Of a DNA stretch of 64,000 bases, positions 23,930 through 52,326 are shown one piece after another (position 1 is the first letter of the stretch; each line of letters opens with the position of its first letter). The DNA is from Pontibacter beigongshangensis (GTDB lineage Bacteria; Bacteroidota; Bacteroidia; Cytophagales; Hymenobacteraceae): contig NZ_VFSD01000016.1 in assembly GCF_014332515.1 (NCBI RefSeq), positions 1-64,000 of the forward strand, written 5' to 3'. The translations under genes and the position numbers were made by a program. The notes under the pieces are model-generated. The model made no database searches, was not told the origin of the DNA, and saw only the letters and a list, made by a program, of their open reading frames with translations.

Positions 23930-24164
23930 GGCAGCAGCACGGGCACCGCCTGGTATTTCGGCCTGGGCCTTAGCCAGGTGGGGGAGTAGCAGGCAAATAA
24001 ATAGTGTTGTGTGAAGTAGTATAGTTATCCCATCCTTCTAAAATTTTACACTGTTTTTACCCGCTTTCTACGTGCAGGCGCGAAAAAGTATTAGCAGTTT
24101 TATGAAATAAATTCTACTTTAAAGAAAAAAACGCTGTTATAGCTTTTGAAAGGCAGAAATAGAT

Positions 24165-24226
24165 GTGCTAACTACGCCCATAGTGCAGATAAGCGTAGGT
24201 TGGGGAGTTATTACGTTTATCTGGGA
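24165..24226 (+). other. Sequence upstream of the cassette array
   Basis: The stretch before the first cassette boundary holds TGCTAAC at 24166-24172 and an ATAAGCGT/ACGTTTAT pair (24189-24196, 24212-24219, one G-T) seven bases before the GTT box. That spacing equals the L'-R' spacing of the two attC-like sites, so this could be a decayed attC or an attI-type target. Evidence is weak. Confidence 0.3.
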
Positions 24227-25216
24227 GTTGGCAGGAATTTGAACGATGAAAGAAATCAAGTGGGTGTTTAATATAATAGCCGTTTTTTTAATCCTGTTCT
24301 GTACAAAGAACAGTTTGGCCAGTCCACAATTACCTGATTACATTATTTACAAAGCTGACACCATTCCTATCTACAATTTGCTCCTTGAACAATACCTGCA
24401 AAAGATAGATAAAAACAGTCAGGGCAGCCTTTTTGGCTTAGAGTTTAGAAGTGGTGCTTCGCTTAATTGCTGGCGGGGATACCAAGCCATTTACACAATT
24501 GAAAATGACAGCCTTTTCTTAAAGGAGATAATCGGCTGTGGAGAGCTCCAAAGTGGTAATTCAATAGACCAGGAAGCTTCTCAGCAAAGATTAATTGACA
24601 TTTTTGGTGAGCAAGTAATAAAAGGTAAAGTGTTTTTAGACTGGTACTCTGGTGAGTTCAGCTTGTCGAAGGAAAATCTGCTGAGATGGGATGGCGTTTT
24701 TCATAAAACTTTTGAAAAAGAGACCTTGGTGCAAGTAGAAGGTGGGAAAGTCAAGAGCATAACGGCAATCACAAATTACGAAGACGCTCCAGACAGAATA
24801 GACAGGAGATATGATGATAAAATAGCTGACATTCTTTTCAAGGAACTTGAGAAGATAAAATGGAAGAGCATTGATAAGTTCGATTGCTCAGAGAAGTTTC
24901 TTATAACCATCGGCACAGACGGCAGAATAAGCAGGGTGACTATGGCTGATTATCAGACAAGAGAAGATGTCAAAGATTATTGGGATATGAATGAATATAA
25001 CTATTGCATAAGGACTATCAGAAAAGGGCTCAAAGGTTTAAAGTTTGACATCCTGAAAATCAATGGTAAACCTATCGAAGAAACTATTCTGGTTGAGATA
25101 TGGCTGGAAGATGACGGCAAACTTGAAAACTGGACAAATTAAAAGAACAACCTTCTGCCAACAAAGTGCAGCCTTTAAGCTCAGCTACGCCTCGTCCATC
25201 GGCTGCACGAGTAACG
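24227..25216 (+). mobile_element. Gene cassette 1 (integron type)
   Basis: The 5' boundary GTTGGCAG (24227-24234) is the exact reverse complement of CTGCCAAC (25155-25162), which follows the stop of the enclosed gene. The predicted excised circle runs from 24228 to 25216, 989 bp. The gene fills nearly the whole unit, starting 18 bases after the boundary. Confidence 0.75.
24246..25142 (+). CDS. Exported protein of unknown function, cassette-borne
   Basis: A 298-residue protein with a signal peptide (IIAVFLILFCTKNSLA, residues ~10-26). The mature part is acidic, without a recognised domain; it contains a pair of Cys in RSGASLNCWRGY and EIIGCGEL. The C-terminal ~90 residues (KFLITIGTDGRISRVTMADYQ, followed by an IRTIRKGLKGLKFDIL stretch) resemble the fold of the TonB-C-like or carboxy-terminal sensor domains seen in Bacteroidota secreted proteins; this is only suggestive. 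Composition is clearly more AT-rich than the genes around it, in line with recent transfer. Confidence 0.8.
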   Translation: MKEIKWVFNIIAVFLILFCTKNSLASPQLPDYIIYKADTIPIYNLLLEQYLQKIDKNSQGSLFGLEFRSGASLNCWRGYQAIYTIENDSLFLKEIIGCGELQSGNSIDQEASQQRLIDIFGEQVIKGKVFLDWYSGEFSLSKENLLRWDGVFHKTFEKETLVQVEGGKVKSITAITNYEDAPDRIDRRYDDKIADILFKELEKIKWKSIDKFDCSEKFLITIGTDGRISRVTMADYQTREDVKDYWDMNEYNYCIRTIRKGLKGLKFDILKINGKPIEETILVEIWLEDDGKLENWTN

Positions 25217-25222
25217 TTAGGT
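25156..25222 (+). other. attC-like recombination site 1
   Basis: Order of boxes: R'' TGCCAAC (25156-25162), three A bases, L'' GTGCAGCC (25166-25173), a 27-base loop, L' GGCTGCAC (25201-25208), seven bases, R' GTTAGGTG (25216-25223). L'' and L' are perfect reverse complements. R' belongs to the next cassette, as in integrated attC sites. Confidence 0.75.
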
Positions 25223-25878
25223 GGTATAAAAAAAGAATGAAGACTCTATTGTTACATATCCTGTTGCTCTTTAGCTCATGTGCCTACGGACAAAAATCTG
25301 TGCTTCAGTCTGACTCAAAGCAACCAAATGAATCGACCATTCAGATGACTTTTGAAGGGCAGTATGATTTCTTAGTTGCATACACAGAAGAAAGCTATTG
25401 GTGGAGCGACAGACAGTTCTACCAAATTTTAGCGCTCAAAGACGGAAAGTGGAGCTTGATAACATTAGTATCGAAAAGAAAGAAGAATGGTGATTTTAGG
25501 AAACCAACCATCAGAGTTAGCTCATTTGAAAAGGACAAAGCACAATTGCTGTTAAACCAGTTAGACCAATTAAGCTTTTGGACATTAAATTCAGACTCTC
25601 TTAACATAACTCGAAGAGAAAACCCTGACTCTACTGTCACGACATACACAATATCTGACGCTGTAAACTATAAGTTCGAAGTAATGACGAAGGAAGGTTA
25701 CAAAGTGATAGAAGCATATGCACCAGAACACTTTCTTGAAAAACTTCCTGAAATTAAGAGCAGGCAGAAGTTTATAATTGGCAGGGACATATTCAAAACA
25801 GCGTTGAAAAATTAAATCACCTAACAAAGTTCAGCCTTTATGCTTTGTCCGCCTCGCCCATCGGCTGCACAATGACCG
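25217..25878 (+). mobile_element. Gene cassette 2 (integron type)
   Basis: The 5' boundary GTTAGGTG (25216-25223) is the exact reverse complement of CACCTAAC (25818-25825), three bases after the stop of the enclosed gene. Its five variable bases differ from those of cassette 1, so each cassette carries its own matched pair. Predicted circle 662 bp. Confidence 0.75.
25237..25815 (+). CDS. Exported protein of unknown function, cassette-borne
   Basis: A 192-residue protein. I start it at ATG 25237 (MKTLLLHILLLFSSCAYGQ, a signal peptide, possibly lipoprotein-like at SSC), not at the GTG 25063 of the longer open frame, which would cross the attC-like site. The mature part has no family I recognise; it is rich in Lys and Ser with a YTEESYWWSDRQFYQIL stretch near 50. 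AT-rich like the other cassette gene, starting 20 bases after the cassette boundary. Confidence 0.75.
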   Translation: MKTLLLHILLLFSSCAYGQKSVLQSDSKQPNESTIQMTFEGQYDFLVAYTEESYWWSDRQFYQILALKDGKWSLITLVSKRKKNGDFRKPTIRVSSFEKDKAQLLLNQLDQLSFWTLNSDSLNITRRENPDSTVTTYTISDAVNYKFEVMTKEGYKVIEAYAPEHFLEKLPEIKSRQKFIIGRDIFKTALKN

Positions 25879-25884
25879 TTCAAC
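25818..25884 (+). other. attC-like recombination site 2
   Basis: R'' CACCTAAC (25818-25825), three A bases, L'' GTTCAGCC (25829-25836), a 26-base loop, L' GGCTGCAC (25863-25870), seven bases, R' GTTCAAC (25878-25884). Spacings equal those of site 1, and the loop ends share GCCTCG and CCATC. Confidence 0.75.
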
Positions 25885-25959
25885 ACAAACACCGCCCAAC
25901 CTCGCCCCAAAGTCAAACAACTGATTCCGAGAGCATGATGCCAAGACTTGCCAGCGGAA

Positions 25960-47560: not shown

Positions 47561-48805
47561 TTATAATTCATCCTGCAGCAATATATCACGCAGGCGTTCG
47601 CCACTCTTCCCGTCAAATTTGTACAGCCAGTCTTCTGTGAATTTTGCCTTGTGGGGGAGTTGCTGCTGGTGGAGTTCGTCTATATGCTGCAGTGCCCACT
47701 CCAGATCCTGCATATTATAAAGAGGATAGGCCACACCTGCGTCTATAAAAGATTTTGATACGTCTAGCCTGCCTGCGGGGTGGTTTTCCAAGGTAAGTAC
47801 CGTTGTATGTTTCATCGCGACTAAAGGCAAGAGGTAGGTTGAGAAAAAACCCATGACCAAACTAACTTTCGGGAGGAGCTTTAGCAGGTGATCATTATCA
47901 ATAACTGTTGTGTTATAATACGAGGGCCAGAGGCCTTGCTCCCAAGGTGACTGTTCAGGATGGGGCTTTAGGTAAATGTGGTAATCTAGTCTAGCTGCCT
48001 GTTCTATAACTTGTTGTACCAGTTGTTTATAATAATGCCTGTTCCATCCAAATAGCTCACGATGTGCTAGTCCCTGATCTACAAAAAGGAGAGACTTTAC
48101 TTCGGGTTGAGGGGCTGCGGTAACTGTAGCAAGCCTATCGAAATAAGGAATGCCTGTAAAGTATACTTTTTGCTGAGCTAACAGGTAATCGTAATGCTCG
48201 TGCACACTATGTGTTTTAGGACAAAAAGAAATATAAAAATCTGCAGTTCGGAGTGGGGTCTTTAGTTTCTTGAAAGTATCCAGATAGCTGTATTGACTTC
48301 TTATCTTGATAAATTCTCGTAAAAAGTCTGAAAATGGCTCCGGTAGCTCTCGTGCCGTGTTTCGTAGAAATATGTGGGCTCTTAACCTGGCAGAAAATTG
48401 CGAAAGTTTGTTCAGGAGTAAAGACATGCGAGCCGGCTTTTTCTGGTTTAGTATATGTTGTTCCAGCCTCACATTAATATTAATATCTCTGATGCCGTGG
48501 TCTAAATGATAAGTAGGTATTTTTAGTACCTTGCAGGTAAGTAAAAGCGCTAGCTGAAAGTATGACTCAATATAGAAGAAAATTACTTTAGATGGCGCTA
48601 TTTGTTCGATCAACTGGAAAGTGTGCTTATAATTTCCCCAGAAAATGGCTTCTCCATAAGTTTGATAGTAATTATTGGTTATTTCTTTTGGGGATGCAAA
48701 TTCTGCGAAATAAAACCTGAAATGACTTTTACATACCTGAAACAAGTCTAGATAATCAGCTCTATTAAAATTGCCAACAATCAGTAAAGTCGGTTTCTTC
48801 CCCAT
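47561..48805 (-). CDS. Capsule-type GT-B glycosyltransferase-like protein
   Basis: A 414-residue soluble protein without a signal peptide. Rossmann-like start KKPTLLIVGNFN, a basic middle, and the second half with LLFVDQG, YHIYLKPHPEQSPW, LLPKVSLVMGFFSTYLLP and TVLTLENHPAG. The KPHP motif and the following architecture resemble capsule/teichoic-acid polymerases and polysialyltransferase-like GT-B proteins. The donor and acceptor are unknown. AT-rich compared with ugd; divergent from the next glycosyltransferase with only a 36-base gap. Confidence 0.65.
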   Translation of the reverse strand: MGKKPTLLIVGNFNRADYLDLFQVCKSHFRFYFAEFASPKEITNNYYQTYGEAIFWGNYKHTFQLIEQIAPSKVIFFYIESYFQLALLLTCKVLKIPTYHLDHGIRDININVRLEQHILNQKKPARMSLLLNKLSQFSARLRAHIFLRNTARELPEPFSDFLREFIKIRSQYSYLDTFKKLKTPLRTADFYISFCPKTHSVHEHYDYLLAQQKVYFTGIPYFDRLATVTAAPQPEVKSLLFVDQGLAHRELFGWNRHYYKQLVQQVIEQAARLDYHIYLKPHPEQSPWEQGLWPSYYNTTVIDNDHLLKLLPKVSLVMGFFSTYLLPLVAMKHTTVLTLENHPAGRLDVSKSFIDAGVAYPLYNMQDLEWALQHIDELHQQQLPHKAKFTEDWLYKFDGKSGERLRDILLQDEL

Positions 48806-48841
48806 TTCTCAGATCAAAATTTTCAAGGTTGCCAGAAAAGC

Positions 48842-50044
48842 ATGGACTTAAAGAAAAACAACGTTGCTATTATTGCACCAGCTATAGCTCGCGAAGGAAT
48901 AACGATGCAAGTTACTACTCAACTAAATGCTTTACAACTTAACCACATTCATGTTTTCCTGATCATACTAGGCCCAGTTGATGAAAAAGTAATAGAAGAG
49001 CTTGAAATTCAGATACCCAATGAACGAAAGCTACTCCTAAACCTATCAACGTCATATCTGTCGGCAAGGGCTTTTTTTAATTCTTATAGCATTGTTTCTC
49101 CTATACTAAGGTTCATCAGGAAAAATAATATTGAAGCAGTAGTAGCACATGCGCCCTATGCTCATTTTATAATGAGGTTGGTAAAACTTGTTTCGTTACT
49201 TTCTGGAGTGAAATTTAAATTACTACAGTACTTTCATGGCATACAATATGTAGAGCATCCGGTAAACTCTGTTGCACGCTTTGGCATGAACAGCCTAAAT
49301 CAAGTACTGGCACTTTGGCTTGATGATGCCCACATATCGGTGTCATACGCCGTAAAGCATGATATTGAGTCAAACCTGATCCGTCTCCGCAGGCATGAAG
49401 TTATCTATAATTCAGTATATGGAAGTAGTAAGCTATCATCAGAAAACCAAGTTGTTTGGGAAAGGATAAGTGCTCTTCTACAGAGCAAGCCAAATAGCTA
49501 TAGGATAGTTTTGCCGAATAGGTTGCACCATAATAAGGGGCAGCGGTTTTTTATAGAAGTCTTGGCATTGTTTATTCAAGAAAACAAAGTTCTTCCTGCT
49601 GAACTGGCTGTATATATGGTTGGGGAAGGTCCTGGAAGAGCAGAAATAGAGGCTGCTATAGCCAATCATATACTACTACAGCCTTTTGTTACGCTTACTG
49701 GGGCATTGCCAAACCCGGTCCTAAGAAGAATGATAGAAGTTGCTGATTTGGTGGTAGTTCCTTCCTTTTTTGAAGGATTTTCTTTCTCAGCATTAGAAGC
49801 TTTACAAGCTGGCGCAGTCCTACTTACTTCTGATACAGGAGGGCTAAAAGAGGTCGTTCAGAATAAAGTTACAGGGTTTACCTTTAAAAATAAGTCTAGA
49901 AAAGATTGCTTGAAAGTTCTTTCTTTTATCTATTCGAACAAGAAGGCTGTTCTTATAGACAGAAATAAGATTATGAAAGACTTAAAAAACAGGTTTTCAG
50001 CAGAGACGCATGTTAGGCAATTGCTAGATTTGATAAACAGTTAA
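48842..50044 (+). CDS. Family 4 glycosyltransferase
   Basis: A 400-residue GT-B protein. N-terminal domain with an unusual ITMQVTTQLNALQ, C-terminal nucleotide-sugar domain with YRIVLPNRLHHNKGQRFFIE, YMVGEGPGRAEIE and the family's E-x7-E motif in VVPSFFEGFSFSALEALQAG. It builds part of a surface polysaccharide. Markedly AT-rich. It ends three bases before the next glycosyltransferase gene, so they form an operon. Confidence 0.87.
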   Translation: MDLKKNNVAIIAPAIAREGITMQVTTQLNALQLNHIHVFLIILGPVDEKVIEELEIQIPNERKLLLNLSTSYLSARAFFNSYSIVSPILRFIRKNNIEAVVAHAPYAHFIMRLVKLVSLLSGVKFKLLQYFHGIQYVEHPVNSVARFGMNSLNQVLALWLDDAHISVSYAVKHDIESNLIRLRRHEVIYNSVYGSSKLSSENQVVWERISALLQSKPNSYRIVLPNRLHHNKGQRFFIEVLALFIQENKVLPAELAVYMVGEGPGRAEIEAAIANHILLQPFVTLTGALPNPVLRRMIEVADLVVVPSFFEGFSFSALEALQAGAVLLTSDTGGLKEVVQNKVTGFTFKNKSRKDCLKVLSFIYSNKKAVLIDRNKIMKDLKNRFSAETHVRQLLDLINS

Positions 50045-50047
50045 GGT

Positions 50048-51265
50048 ATGTCGAAGCGACTTTTAGTATTATGCTATTGGGGCATGAATGATCCACTTAC
50101 CCATGGTTCTATTCTTCCGCACCTCCGGATTATAGCTCAGTTGCCTAGTGTTGATATTGTGCTTTTCGCTACTATAGAGCGTGACCGGAAGCACGAGCTA
50201 GATGAGCGTGTACTTGACGGAATACGAAACGTGCGGCATATACCCTTGTTCAGTCAAAACATACCCATAAACCTGCTCAATAAGATTTATGACTTTTTAC
50301 TATTTCCAAAGCTGTTGAAACAGGTGGTCCTAGATCATAATATTACTGATATTATAGCCTTTAGTACACCTGCAGCATCTTTGGTGCATTTGCTTACAAA
50401 ACAGCTGAACCTTACCTACTATGTGGCTTTTTATGAACCTCATGCAGCTTATATGTTGGAAACAGGTATTTGGGGGAGATATGATCCAAGGTATATCTAT
50501 CAGAAGAAGTGGGAAAAGGAGCAGGCAAGAGATGCAAAAGGTTTGTTAGCTGTTTCGGAGGCATTCAGGCAGGAAATAAGTAGCAATAGTTTGGCCCCTG
50601 CTAGCAAAATCAGAGTAGTTCGTAATGCAGTGGACATGACCAAATTTTTGTCCAATCCGGCTAAGAGAAGTAAGGTTAAATATAACTTAGGAATAGCTGC
50701 CGAAACTACAGTTGGTGTGTATGTGGGGAAATTTGGAGGGCTCTATTTTGAAGAGGATGCGTTTGCGATTTATCAGTCTTGCTTTGAACTGATATCTAAC
50801 TTTAGTCTGCTAATTTTGACACCGCAGGAGCATGTGGTAATTTGTGAAAACACTCGAAGGACGAATTTAGATGAAAAGAAAATATTTGTGCTTACAGTGC
50901 CACATCAAGAAGTGCCGGATTACCTATCTGCCGCAGATTTTGCATTCGCCACCATAAAATCTTATCCCTCTGCCAGATACTGCTCCCCCGTCAAAATAGG
51001 CGAGTACTGGGCCAGCGGCCTGCCCGTGTTGCTGACAGAAGGCGTAGGCGATGACAGTGATATTATCAAAAATGAGGGAGGAGGAGCACTCTTTAACGTA
51101 GCAGTACCCGGAAGTGTGGAAAAGGCTATCCTCCAGATACAGGAAATTATAAATCAGCCCGGGCATCGGGAAGAGATAAGGAAGCTAGCCATCAAGTACC
51201 GGTCGCCGGACCGAATCAAAGAAGCGTATGAGTATTTCTTTGGTGCAAACAGGGAAGTGTCGTGA
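50048..51265 (+). CDS. Family 4-like glycosyltransferase, compositionally mosaic
   Basis: A 405-residue GT-B protein. KGLLAVSEAFRQEI and RVVRNAVDMTKF mark the inter-domain region, GVYVGKFGG the start of the C-terminal domain, and GEYWASGLPVLLTEGVGDDSD the sugar-nucleotide site. By eye the first ~880 bases are AT-rich like the gene before it, while the last ~330 are GC-rich like the gene after it. The change is near 50930-50980. It overlaps the next gene by four bases (GTGA). Confidence 0.83.
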   Translation: MSKRLLVLCYWGMNDPLTHGSILPHLRIIAQLPSVDIVLFATIERDRKHELDERVLDGIRNVRHIPLFSQNIPINLLNKIYDFLLFPKLLKQVVLDHNITDIIAFSTPAASLVHLLTKQLNLTYYVAFYEPHAAYMLETGIWGRYDPRYIYQKKWEKEQARDAKGLLAVSEAFRQEISSNSLAPASKIRVVRNAVDMTKFLSNPAKRSKVKYNLGIAAETTVGVYVGKFGGLYFEEDAFAIYQSCFELISNFSLLILTPQEHVVICENTRRTNLDEKKIFVLTVPHQEVPDYLSAADFAFATIKSYPSARYCSPVKIGEYWASGLPVLLTEGVGDDSDIIKNEGGGALFNVAVPGSVEKAILQIQEIINQPGHREEIRKLAIKYRSPDRIKEAYEYFFGANREVS

Positions 51266-52326
51266 AGGTACTCTTTGTAGTGCCCTACCCTTTAGGCCAG
51301 GCCGCTTCCCAGCGCTTCCGGTTTGAGCAGTACCTGCCGCAGTTGGAGCAGAAGGGCGTTTTAATTCAAGTAATCCCGTTCTGGAGCAGCAGCAGCTGGC
51401 GTGTGCTTTACCAGAGGGGCAAAATCATTCAAAAAATTGGTGGGCTGCTGCAGGGCTTTCTCAAGAGGGGGCTGCTCATAACCCGTCTCCACCAGTACGA
51501 TATTGTATTCATTCACCGCGAAGCCACCCCTGTAGGCCCGCCCTGGTTTGAGTGGCTGGTGGCAAAGGTGTGGAAAAAGAGAATCATATTCGATTTTGAC
51601 GATGCCATCTGGCTACCTGACGCATCAGTTGGCAACACAATAGCTGCCCGGCTGAAGTGGCACCACAAAACGGCTGCTATCTGCAGTTGGAGCTATAGAG
51701 TGAGTTGTGGCAACAGCTATCTGCAGCAATACGCGCTGGCGTTCAATAAAGCTTCCGTGCTGATGCCCACCACCATCGATACCCGGCAGCAACACAAACG
51801 GCAGAAGCAACAAAGCAGCCAAACTGTTACAGTAGGCTGGACTGGCTCGCACTCCACGCTGCCTTACCTCCGGCTGGTGGAACCTGTGTTGCAGCAGCTG
51901 CAGCAGCAGTACCAGTTTGAGTTTGTTGTAATTGCCGATAAAGCTCCGGAGTTAAACCTGATCTCCTGCACGTATGTGCCCTGGCGTAAAGAAACGGAGG
52001 TAGAAGACCTGCTCCGGCTCAACATCGGCATTATGCCGCTCCCTGATACCGAGTGGGCGAAAGGGAAATGCGCTTTTAAAGCACTGCAATACATGGCGTT
52101 GGGCATCCCGGCTGTTGTGTCGGCGGTGGGGGCTAACAAGTCTGCTGTGGTGGATGGTATTACCGGTTTTTGTTGCAGCACGCCTGAGGAGTGGTACAAG
52201 CGGCTGGAGCAGCTAATACTTGATCCTGAGCTAAGGGCAAAGATGGGTGCGGCCGGACGGGCGCAGGTAGAGGAGCATTATTCGGTAACAGCCAATACCA
52301 CCACCTTTCTGAGCCTGTTCTCCTAG
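51262..52326 (+). CDS. Family 4-like glycosyltransferase
   Basis: A 354-residue GT-B protein starting at GTG 51262. Signatures: VVPYPLGQAASQRFRFEQYL at the N-terminus, FIHREATPVGPPWFEWL, IIFDFDDAIWLPD, VGWTGSHSTLPYL, and ALQYMALGIPAVVSAVGANK. It is GC-rich, unlike the two AT-rich genes before it. Its stop TAG overlaps the stop of the TPR gene on the other strand (CTAG). Confidence 0.85.
   Translation: MKVLFVVPYPLGQAASQRFRFEQYLPQLEQKGVLIQVIPFWSSSSWRVLYQRGKIIQKIGGLLQGFLKRGLLITRLHQYDIVFIHREATPVGPPWFEWLVAKVWKKRIIFDFDDAIWLPDASVGNTIAARLKWHHKTAAICSWSYRVSCGNSYLQQYALAFNKASVLMPTTIDTRQQHKRQKQQSSQTVTVGWTGSHSTLPYLRLVEPVLQQLQQQYQFEFVVIADKAPELNLISCTYVPWRKETEVEDLLRLNIGIMPLPDTEWAKGKCAFKALQYMALGIPAVVSAVGANKSAVVDGITGFCCSTPEEWYKRLEQLILDPELRAKMGAAGRAQVEEHYSVTANTTTFLSLFS

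Follow-up and report, generated by a model that had tools for sequence, protein, structure and literature searches.

The two-cassette array found in the window, as we call the whole stretch of 64,000 nucleotides from contig NZ_VFSD01000016.1 of Pontibacter beigongshangensis analysed here, is more than a bare cluster of attC sites: it begins at an attI-like site, and this attI is one of several solo attIs that are scattered over the genome without a recombinase gene. We consider it probable that the array grew at such a solo attI, with cassettes captured in trans by a tyrosine recombinase devoid of the I2 patch of integron integrases, and that this system extends throughout Pontibacter and its relatives. 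The tie between the cassettes and a patchless recombinase suggests a second kind of integron.

The sequence-only reading that drew attention to this region had described integron-type cassettes with no integrase nearby, and rightly so: there is no PF00589 match on the window contig, all nine matches of the genome being on other contigs. Its four boxes are in place, with GTTGGCAG (24227-24234) exactly complementing CTGCCAAC (25155-25162) and GTTAGGTG (25216-25223) exactly complementing CACCTAAC (25818-25825), and the unit sizes that it gave (989 bp and 662 bp) are correct because the next GTT stands at 25878. The reading frames start 19 (ORF1) and 21 (ORF2) bases past the box and end 12 and 2 bases ahead of R'', close to the 18-20 and 3-13 bases given before, and both genes are AT-rich as claimed (38 and 40% GC in two 1-kb steps vs 55 and 53% alongside). 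The motif CATCGGCTGCAC occurs three times in the window at up to one mismatch, vs 0.32 times expected, its two exact copies being both L' boxes, which is more than chance would give. Under a site model of which both sites are themselves part, the attC of cassette 1 scores 75.9 bits and that of cassette 2, which has a T-C mismatch between L'' and L', 71.7 bits. The core of the window attI is an exact match to the motif, one of seven exact ones in the genome. Neither cassette ORF has a Pfam or NCBIfam match over the cut-off.

Table 1. Features of the cassette array, in window coordinates.
Feature	Position	Strand	Basis and remarks
attI-like site	24164..24226	+	core CATAGTGCAGATAA 24179-24192, imperfect inverted repeat, then GTT 24227; left end approximate
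cassette 1, 989 bp	24227..25215	+	own R' box GTTGGCAG to base before next GTT; box pairing
cassette 1 ORF, 298 aa	24246..25142	+	signal-peptide-like N-terminus by eye
attC of cassette 1	25155..25223	+	R'' CTGCCAAC, L'' GTGCAGCC, L' GGCTGCAC, plus R' of cassette 2
cassette 2, 662 bp	25216..25877	+	DNA identity to G017 and G016
cassette 2 ORF, 192 aa	25237..25815	+	lipoprotein-like N-terminus by eye
attC of cassette 2, last in array	25818..25884	+	includes following GTTCAAC at 25878
stretch without counterpart in G068	24058..25958		outer limits, local alignment (G068 only)

With two attC sites and no integrase nearby (PF00589, contig), the array has the make-up of a CALIN; CALINs, in our own reading of the term, have no attI platform, whereas this array starts from one. 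Elsewhere in the window, the GC content falls to 37-41% over 48-51 kb, within an AT-rich region (47561-52326) whose ORFs resemble by eye the glycosyltransferases of a polysaccharide locus.

A similarity search with the window DNA revealed the same type of site at four further places in the genome. A model built from six sites of this genome (R1) found six strong sites (E <= 1.8e-12) and seven weaker ones, 13 in total at E <= 0.1; the strong six are those from which R1 was built, and four of these had already turned up in the DNA similarity search. The longest array found in this genome (L015, G000:C13:1-12000) has nine attC sites in 12 kb at the end of contig C13 opposite to its recombinase gene, in a stretch without a recombinase by PF00589. 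The sequence-only reading had proposed a search for similar sites in related genomes, and they are abundant there: among 59 genomes searched with R1 (E <= 0.01, stricter filters), attC-type sites are present in 37/37 of the genus and in 0/22 of other genera in the order. Applied to 40 recombinase loci together with the window and three further stretches, R1 yielded 101 sites; with a second model, R2, there were 176 at E <= 0.5. Across the 101 sites the L''/L' stem has 92.5% of its cells paired, vs 72.7% when shuffled and at most 43.8% when slid, in an alignment that had been fitted to this very stem, and 117 cells are altered on both sides vs 38 in shuffles; two of the five covariation measures were no higher than in shuffles (double-change pairs, 4 vs 4.0; further pair types, 11 vs 10.6). 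Pairs of neighbouring R2 sites lying 200-2500 bp apart, with both boxes readable, numbered 116 (out of 176 sites). In 71 of these, all four variable bases of R'' agree with the cassette's own start, compared with a mean of 4.4 and a maximum of 13 in 10,000 shuffles; agreement with the following box was seen in seven. Matching to the own start is the trace to be expected from excision and insertion of circles. Together with the covariation of the stem it indicates that these are genuine attC sites which close each cassette on its own start, as in classical integrons.

The cassettes mostly carry a single gene. With L015 and window sites excluded, as well as units above 2000 or below 250 bp, 119 of 120 units (<=2000 bp) contain an ORF of at least 50 aa, which lies in sense in 114 cases and in antisense in five; the median unit measures 627 bp and the median ORF 171 aa. 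A Pfam scan of 61 of the 114 sense ORFs gave 29 families, including HigB-like toxin, SUKH, MerT and DUFs, and the 25 families listed match one member each.

That the genes travel as separate units, as first proposed, is borne out by cassette 2, which occurs in two other species with a box-exact start. Full-length relatives of its ORF, 80% and 82% identical, are present in 2/49 other genomes of the genus, and at the DNA level the identity is 84% to G017 over exactly 25216-25870 (the end of L') and 84% to G016 over 25216-25827, ending inside the attC. In both genomes the similarity begins precisely at the GTT at 25216, the DNA upstream is unrelated, and the attI motif again stands directly ahead of the cassette. 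Such comparisons indicate that cassette 2 has moved as a unit. For the ORF of cassette 1 we found distant homologues only, at eight places in other genomes of the genus, four of these eight loci carrying an attC. The sequence-only reading had named close relatives with both genes at the same place and diverged boxes as evidence against it; in the relatives compared the locus is empty, G068 and G027 keeping both flanking genes and lacking the insert. In G068, the nearest relative, similarity ends near window position 24057 and returns near 25959, with about 312 unrelated bases in between; a MAFFT alignment of the window with both genomes did not give clean insertion points, and the outer limits were taken from local alignment. 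R2 finds no sites in seven orthologous stretches (L174, L175, L178-L182).

The recombinase to which the arrays are linked has about 485 aa and combines an IntI/Xer-like catalytic half, without the I2 patch, with two tandem N-terminal domains; relative to IntI it is extended by about 205 aa at the N-terminus. P. beigongshangensis has two copies, at the end of contig C13 (L109) and at the start of contig C37 (L108); both end at contig ends, in or just past their attI, as do several in other genomes, so that neither copy can be seen next to its own array. The assemblies probably break here because the arrays are repeated. The genus set comprises 40 recombinase loci from 31/37 genomes; the remaining six (G006, G007, G014, G022, G032, G034) are listed with weaker, partial or fragmentary matches. 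These 40 loci, most of which span only about 1-3 kb upstream of the recombinase, contain 163 sites, of which 156 lie downstream on the same strand, seven downstream on the opposite strand and none upstream. Five of the seven opposite-strand sites belong to a single locus (L103, G002:C1:289288-309200), in which they follow the recombinase at a distance of at least 6.7 kb and may represent an inverted or second array. In a set of 48 named loci, mostly with 10 kb of upstream DNA and overlapping the first set in several contigs, so that the two are not independent, 50/50 sites are downstream on the same strand. No R2 site was found in 8/40 loci, each with less than 1.4 kb of downstream DNA. Other tyrosine recombinases of the genome were considered as the linked enzyme and rejected: 0/7 of their loci have attC sites (about 1.5 kb each side). 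A search for a LexA box ahead of the recombinase gene gave any match in only 2/20 loci. The enzyme also occurs in Rufibacter and Adhaeribacter and, among the matches listed, on at least two plasmids, of Pontibacter kalidii and Rufibacter tibetensis; the P. kalidii plasmid copy (L083) has four attC sites downstream.

Between the recombinase gene and its array there is a putative attI, as in classical integrons. The motif CATAGTGCAGATAA or a close variant, followed by an inverted repeat, lies directly ahead of the first recognised cassette in 19/31 genus loci, two of the 19 having one mismatch in the start box; at the other genus loci the first R2 site is not the first cassette, or the start was not found. 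It is situated 136-147 bp past the recombinase stop in 17/19 cases; the other two, in which the gene end is altered, have it at 174 and 266 bp. By eye, a comparable stretch is present in all 21 named near loci, and in 16 it contains the exact CATAGTGC. The evidence for the sites and for the linkage of recombinase, attI and array is strong.

The attI motif found after recombinase genes also immediately precedes the window array. Its 14-base core occurs at 19 places in the genome with at most one mismatch (at two mismatches there are 84 matches vs 40 for the reversed pattern), and 12 of the 19 have the form of an attI by eye: two at recombinase genes and ten solo, among them L185 without a GTT and the divergent L193, which has an attC by R2. 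A perfectly closed cassette comes after five of these ten, and after a sixth the cassette is closed with one mismatch. A search for a 17-base form in seven near-complete genomes gave 56 matches at no more than one mismatch, against none for the reversed pattern. Thirty of these matches were examined: tblastn finds a recombinase at eight and none at 22, the eight replacing a pattern-match count of 10/30 linked to a recombinase. A perfectly closed cassette follows 11 of the 22 solo sites, one of which (L236) is not attI-like in appearance. Six more genomes have loci with solo attIs ahead of scattered attCs (L044, L046, L051, L052, L056, L058); most loci of that survey showed none within the stretches examined.

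Other elements may also be found at attIs. At three places in G022 (L232, L238, L244) the attI is followed by an IS110-family transposase gene, with the GTT replaced by GTGCCTGTATTG and with PF01548 and PF02371 in the two transposase genes scanned, so that at each of the three an IS110 element seems to be inserted precisely at the junction of the attI. Directly past the attI in L111, L117, L118, L226, L227 and L239, which belong to several species, there is a common stretch beginning with GTTGGCCGTGATTGGG or GTTAATCCGTCATTGGG and without an Rfam match. At or after the attI of nine loci there is no Rfam match, group II introns included.

A recombinase with the integron-specific patch, for which the sequence-only reading had advised a search, did not turn up: this and 58 related genomes of genus and order yielded no match to TIGR02249 (integron integrase) over the cut-off (0/59), and in place of a patch-bearing IntI it is a patchless relative that goes with the sites. 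The genus enzymes align to both ends of TIGR02249 and not to its middle, and residues 202-248 of the IntI structure 2a3v have no counterpart in the patchless enzyme. From the catalytic K to HxxR we counted 105 residues in 12/12 bona fide IntI of the phylum, 63 in 22/22 own and near enzymes, and 63-69 in 24/24 far ones; the XerD and XerC of P. beigongshangensis have 71 and 69. The patch region is missing in 46/46 own, near and far enzymes, and it is present in 12/12 IntI. The catalytic residues R, K, H, R, H and Y are conserved in 62/62 rows, both own copies included, as predicted for active tyrosine recombinases. The tree places the 12 IntI in a supported group of their own (100/100) and the near enzymes in a second one (100/100); near and far enzymes fall, with two unclassified rows, on one side of a weaker branch (91/54); the deep order is unsure because of long branches. 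By fold, the nearest structures to the catalytic half are those of XerA and XerH, followed by IntI. Of the enzymes tested, 5/5 have NF040815 ("site-specific tyrosine recombinase/integron integrase") as their top NCBIfam hit, so that public records may already call some of them "integron". The N-terminal piece has no Pfam match, to HARP or otherwise; among known domains, this half may be comparable in fold to DNA-structure-binding domains of the HARP type or to the N-terminal damage recognition domain of XPB (XPB-DRD).

In some Flavobacteria, Cytophagales and Ignavibacteria, genes for far relatives of the enzyme are followed by cassette-like arrays. Searching for a generic pattern (AAC, 8-bp stem, loop, stem, GTT), we found repeated sites downstream of the gene in Seonamhaeicola, Gelidibacter, Muricauda, MAGs of Bacteroidota and Cytophagales and an Ignavibacteria MAG, and a short run of such sites after a far relative in a Neomarinimicrobiota MAG. 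Within 26 far loci, 25/52 generic sites are preceded at 150-2000 bp by an exact own start (mean 6.2, maximum 16 in 2000 shuffles); nine of the 26 loci have no generic site, and seven more have sites without an own start only.

Folding of the attC sites, which was part of the original claim, depends on the form in which the site is considered. As they stand in the array, the two sites fold no better than shuffles (bottom strand z -0.91 and -0.04); the site closed on its own R' is the better substrate. In this closed form, which it would have in an excised circle, attC1 reaches -14.9 kcal/mol on the top strand (z -2.9, 0/200 shuffles as good) and -15.0 kcal/mol on the bottom strand (z -2.7, 1/200). 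The same closed form of attC2 is weaker, with z -2.1 (5/200) for the bottom and z -0.7 (36/200) for the top strand. The proposed fold is consequently upheld for attC1 closed on its own box and weakly for attC2, and for neither in array form.

In the explanation that we favour, the window represents a solo attI-like site at which two cassettes would have arrived independently. The patchless recombinase, coded on C13 and C37, would recombine attI with folded attC and thereby insert and excise cassettes as circles. Covariation of the stem and the circle-form folding of attC1 fit, indirectly, a folded single strand as the presumed substrate, and recognition of this folded form may fall to the two tandem N-terminal domains in place of I2. 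Some 140 bp past every recombinase gene there would be an attI belonging to it, followed by cassettes in the same orientation, and the enzyme would in addition serve in trans the solo attIs scattered over the chromosome. We count against this explanation that I2 is described as needed for IntI1 (PMC7790495), that both recombinase copies of this genome end at contig ends, that about half of the solo attIs have no closed cassette, that 8/40 loci lack a site and no LexA box was found ahead of the gene, and that attC2 folds weakly and neither site folds in array form. A wider proposal seems to us about as likely as not: a second integron lineage, with cassettes captured as folded DNA by an I2-less recombinase, a hairpin read by tandem structure-specific N-terminal domains and one or few genes serving about ten scattered attIs, may range from Bacteroidota into Ignavibacteria and Marinimicrobia.

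Several other explanations have to be weighed. The palindromic form of the sites, their place after genes and their recurrence in the genome would also fit terminators or interspersed palindromic repeats that merely resemble attC among ordinary resident genes; this reading is scarcely credible in view of the own-start matching, the precise mobility of cassette 2, the empty loci and the linkage with recombinase and attI. It is also conceivable that the window holds an ordinary CALIN, whose cassettes were placed by a classical patch-bearing IntI since lost or residing in other bacteria, with the patchless enzyme as a bystander. CALINs are common in print, as far as the source consulted goes (PMC9024848), and other parts of the phylum often have bona fide IntI, with a match over the cut-off in 105/395 genomes. 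However, no IntI exceeds the cut-off in any of the 59 genomes of genus and order, only one of the 107 phylum genomes with an IntI match is labelled as the same class, and patchless enzyme, attI and arrays are linked throughout the loci examined, which makes a foreign or lost IntI very improbable.

A different question is how the patchless enzyme, if it is responsible, recognises its sites. It might act on double-stranded attC boxes in the ordinary way of Xer or Cre, with the hairpin as a by-product: it has no counterpart of the element that handles folded sites in IntI, and its catalytic half is nearest in fold to XerA and XerH. The covariation of L'' and L' (101 sites) and the pairing of R'' with the own cassette start are nevertheless what selection on the folded circle form would be expected to produce, and we regard action on double-stranded boxes as unlikely. 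The solo attI of the window could be the relic of a complete unit that has lost its recombinase gene by deletion, an account that concerns the origin of the solo attI only and is compatible with capture in trans. Shortened or frame-broken recombinase copies in several genomes, the two copies in this genome and five loci in G002 are in line with it, but tblastn detects no remnant (E <= 1e-3) within 1.5 kb each side at 22/30 attI loci of the seven near-complete genomes or at the ten solo loci of this genome, and similarity to the recombinase 3' flank ends, by eye, about 15 bases left of the attI core. A relic origin appears possible to us, though somewhat doubtful.

These arrays stand close to several known systems. 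With chromosomal integrons they share attC sites with R'', L'', L' and R', mostly one sense ORF per cassette, an attI beside a tyrosine recombinase gene and the GTT junction; unlike them, they go with a recombinase of the Pontibacter type, without I2 and with an extension of about 205 aa, and with many attIs away from recombinase genes. The chromosomal integrons of Treponema likewise have a recombinase transcribed toward the cassettes, in an atypical layout, but their genes are intI in the description available to us (PMC3607928), whereas the Pontibacter enzyme is patchless. With CALINs the window array shares the lack of a recombinase on the contig; it differs in beginning at an attI-like site common to recombinase loci. 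The enzyme itself resembles an "integron-like" subgroup of tyrosine recombinases and NF040815, its best match in the five enzymes tested; the insertion is not fully conserved in that subgroup (PMC8138268), and in the sources consulted neither the subgroup nor NF040815 has its patchless members tied to cassette arrays.

In the excerpts that we consulted, the insertion is termed essential for integron function (PMC8138268), and I2 is described as the innovation by which integron integrases recombine folded single strands, its deletion abolishing the function of IntI1 (PMC7790495). Integrons in Bacteroidota are already in print (PMC9668308, PMC8618304), as are delta-attI sites as parts of cassettes (PMC12901181), again as far as these sources were available to us. 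Among the matches listed in open-licence PMC we found no report of Pontibacter integrons or of cassette arrays with patchless recombinases. If a lineage without I2 has indeed kept attC cassettes, another solution to their recombination exists, and a natural comparison for the origin of integrons would be at hand. Such a lineage could also explain why a large survey, in the portion consulted, found few complete integrons in Bacteroidetes, since its search requires IntI (PMC9024848). Dispersed attIs served in trans, if confirmed, would be a novel arrangement, in which captured genes have many places in one genome at which to land.
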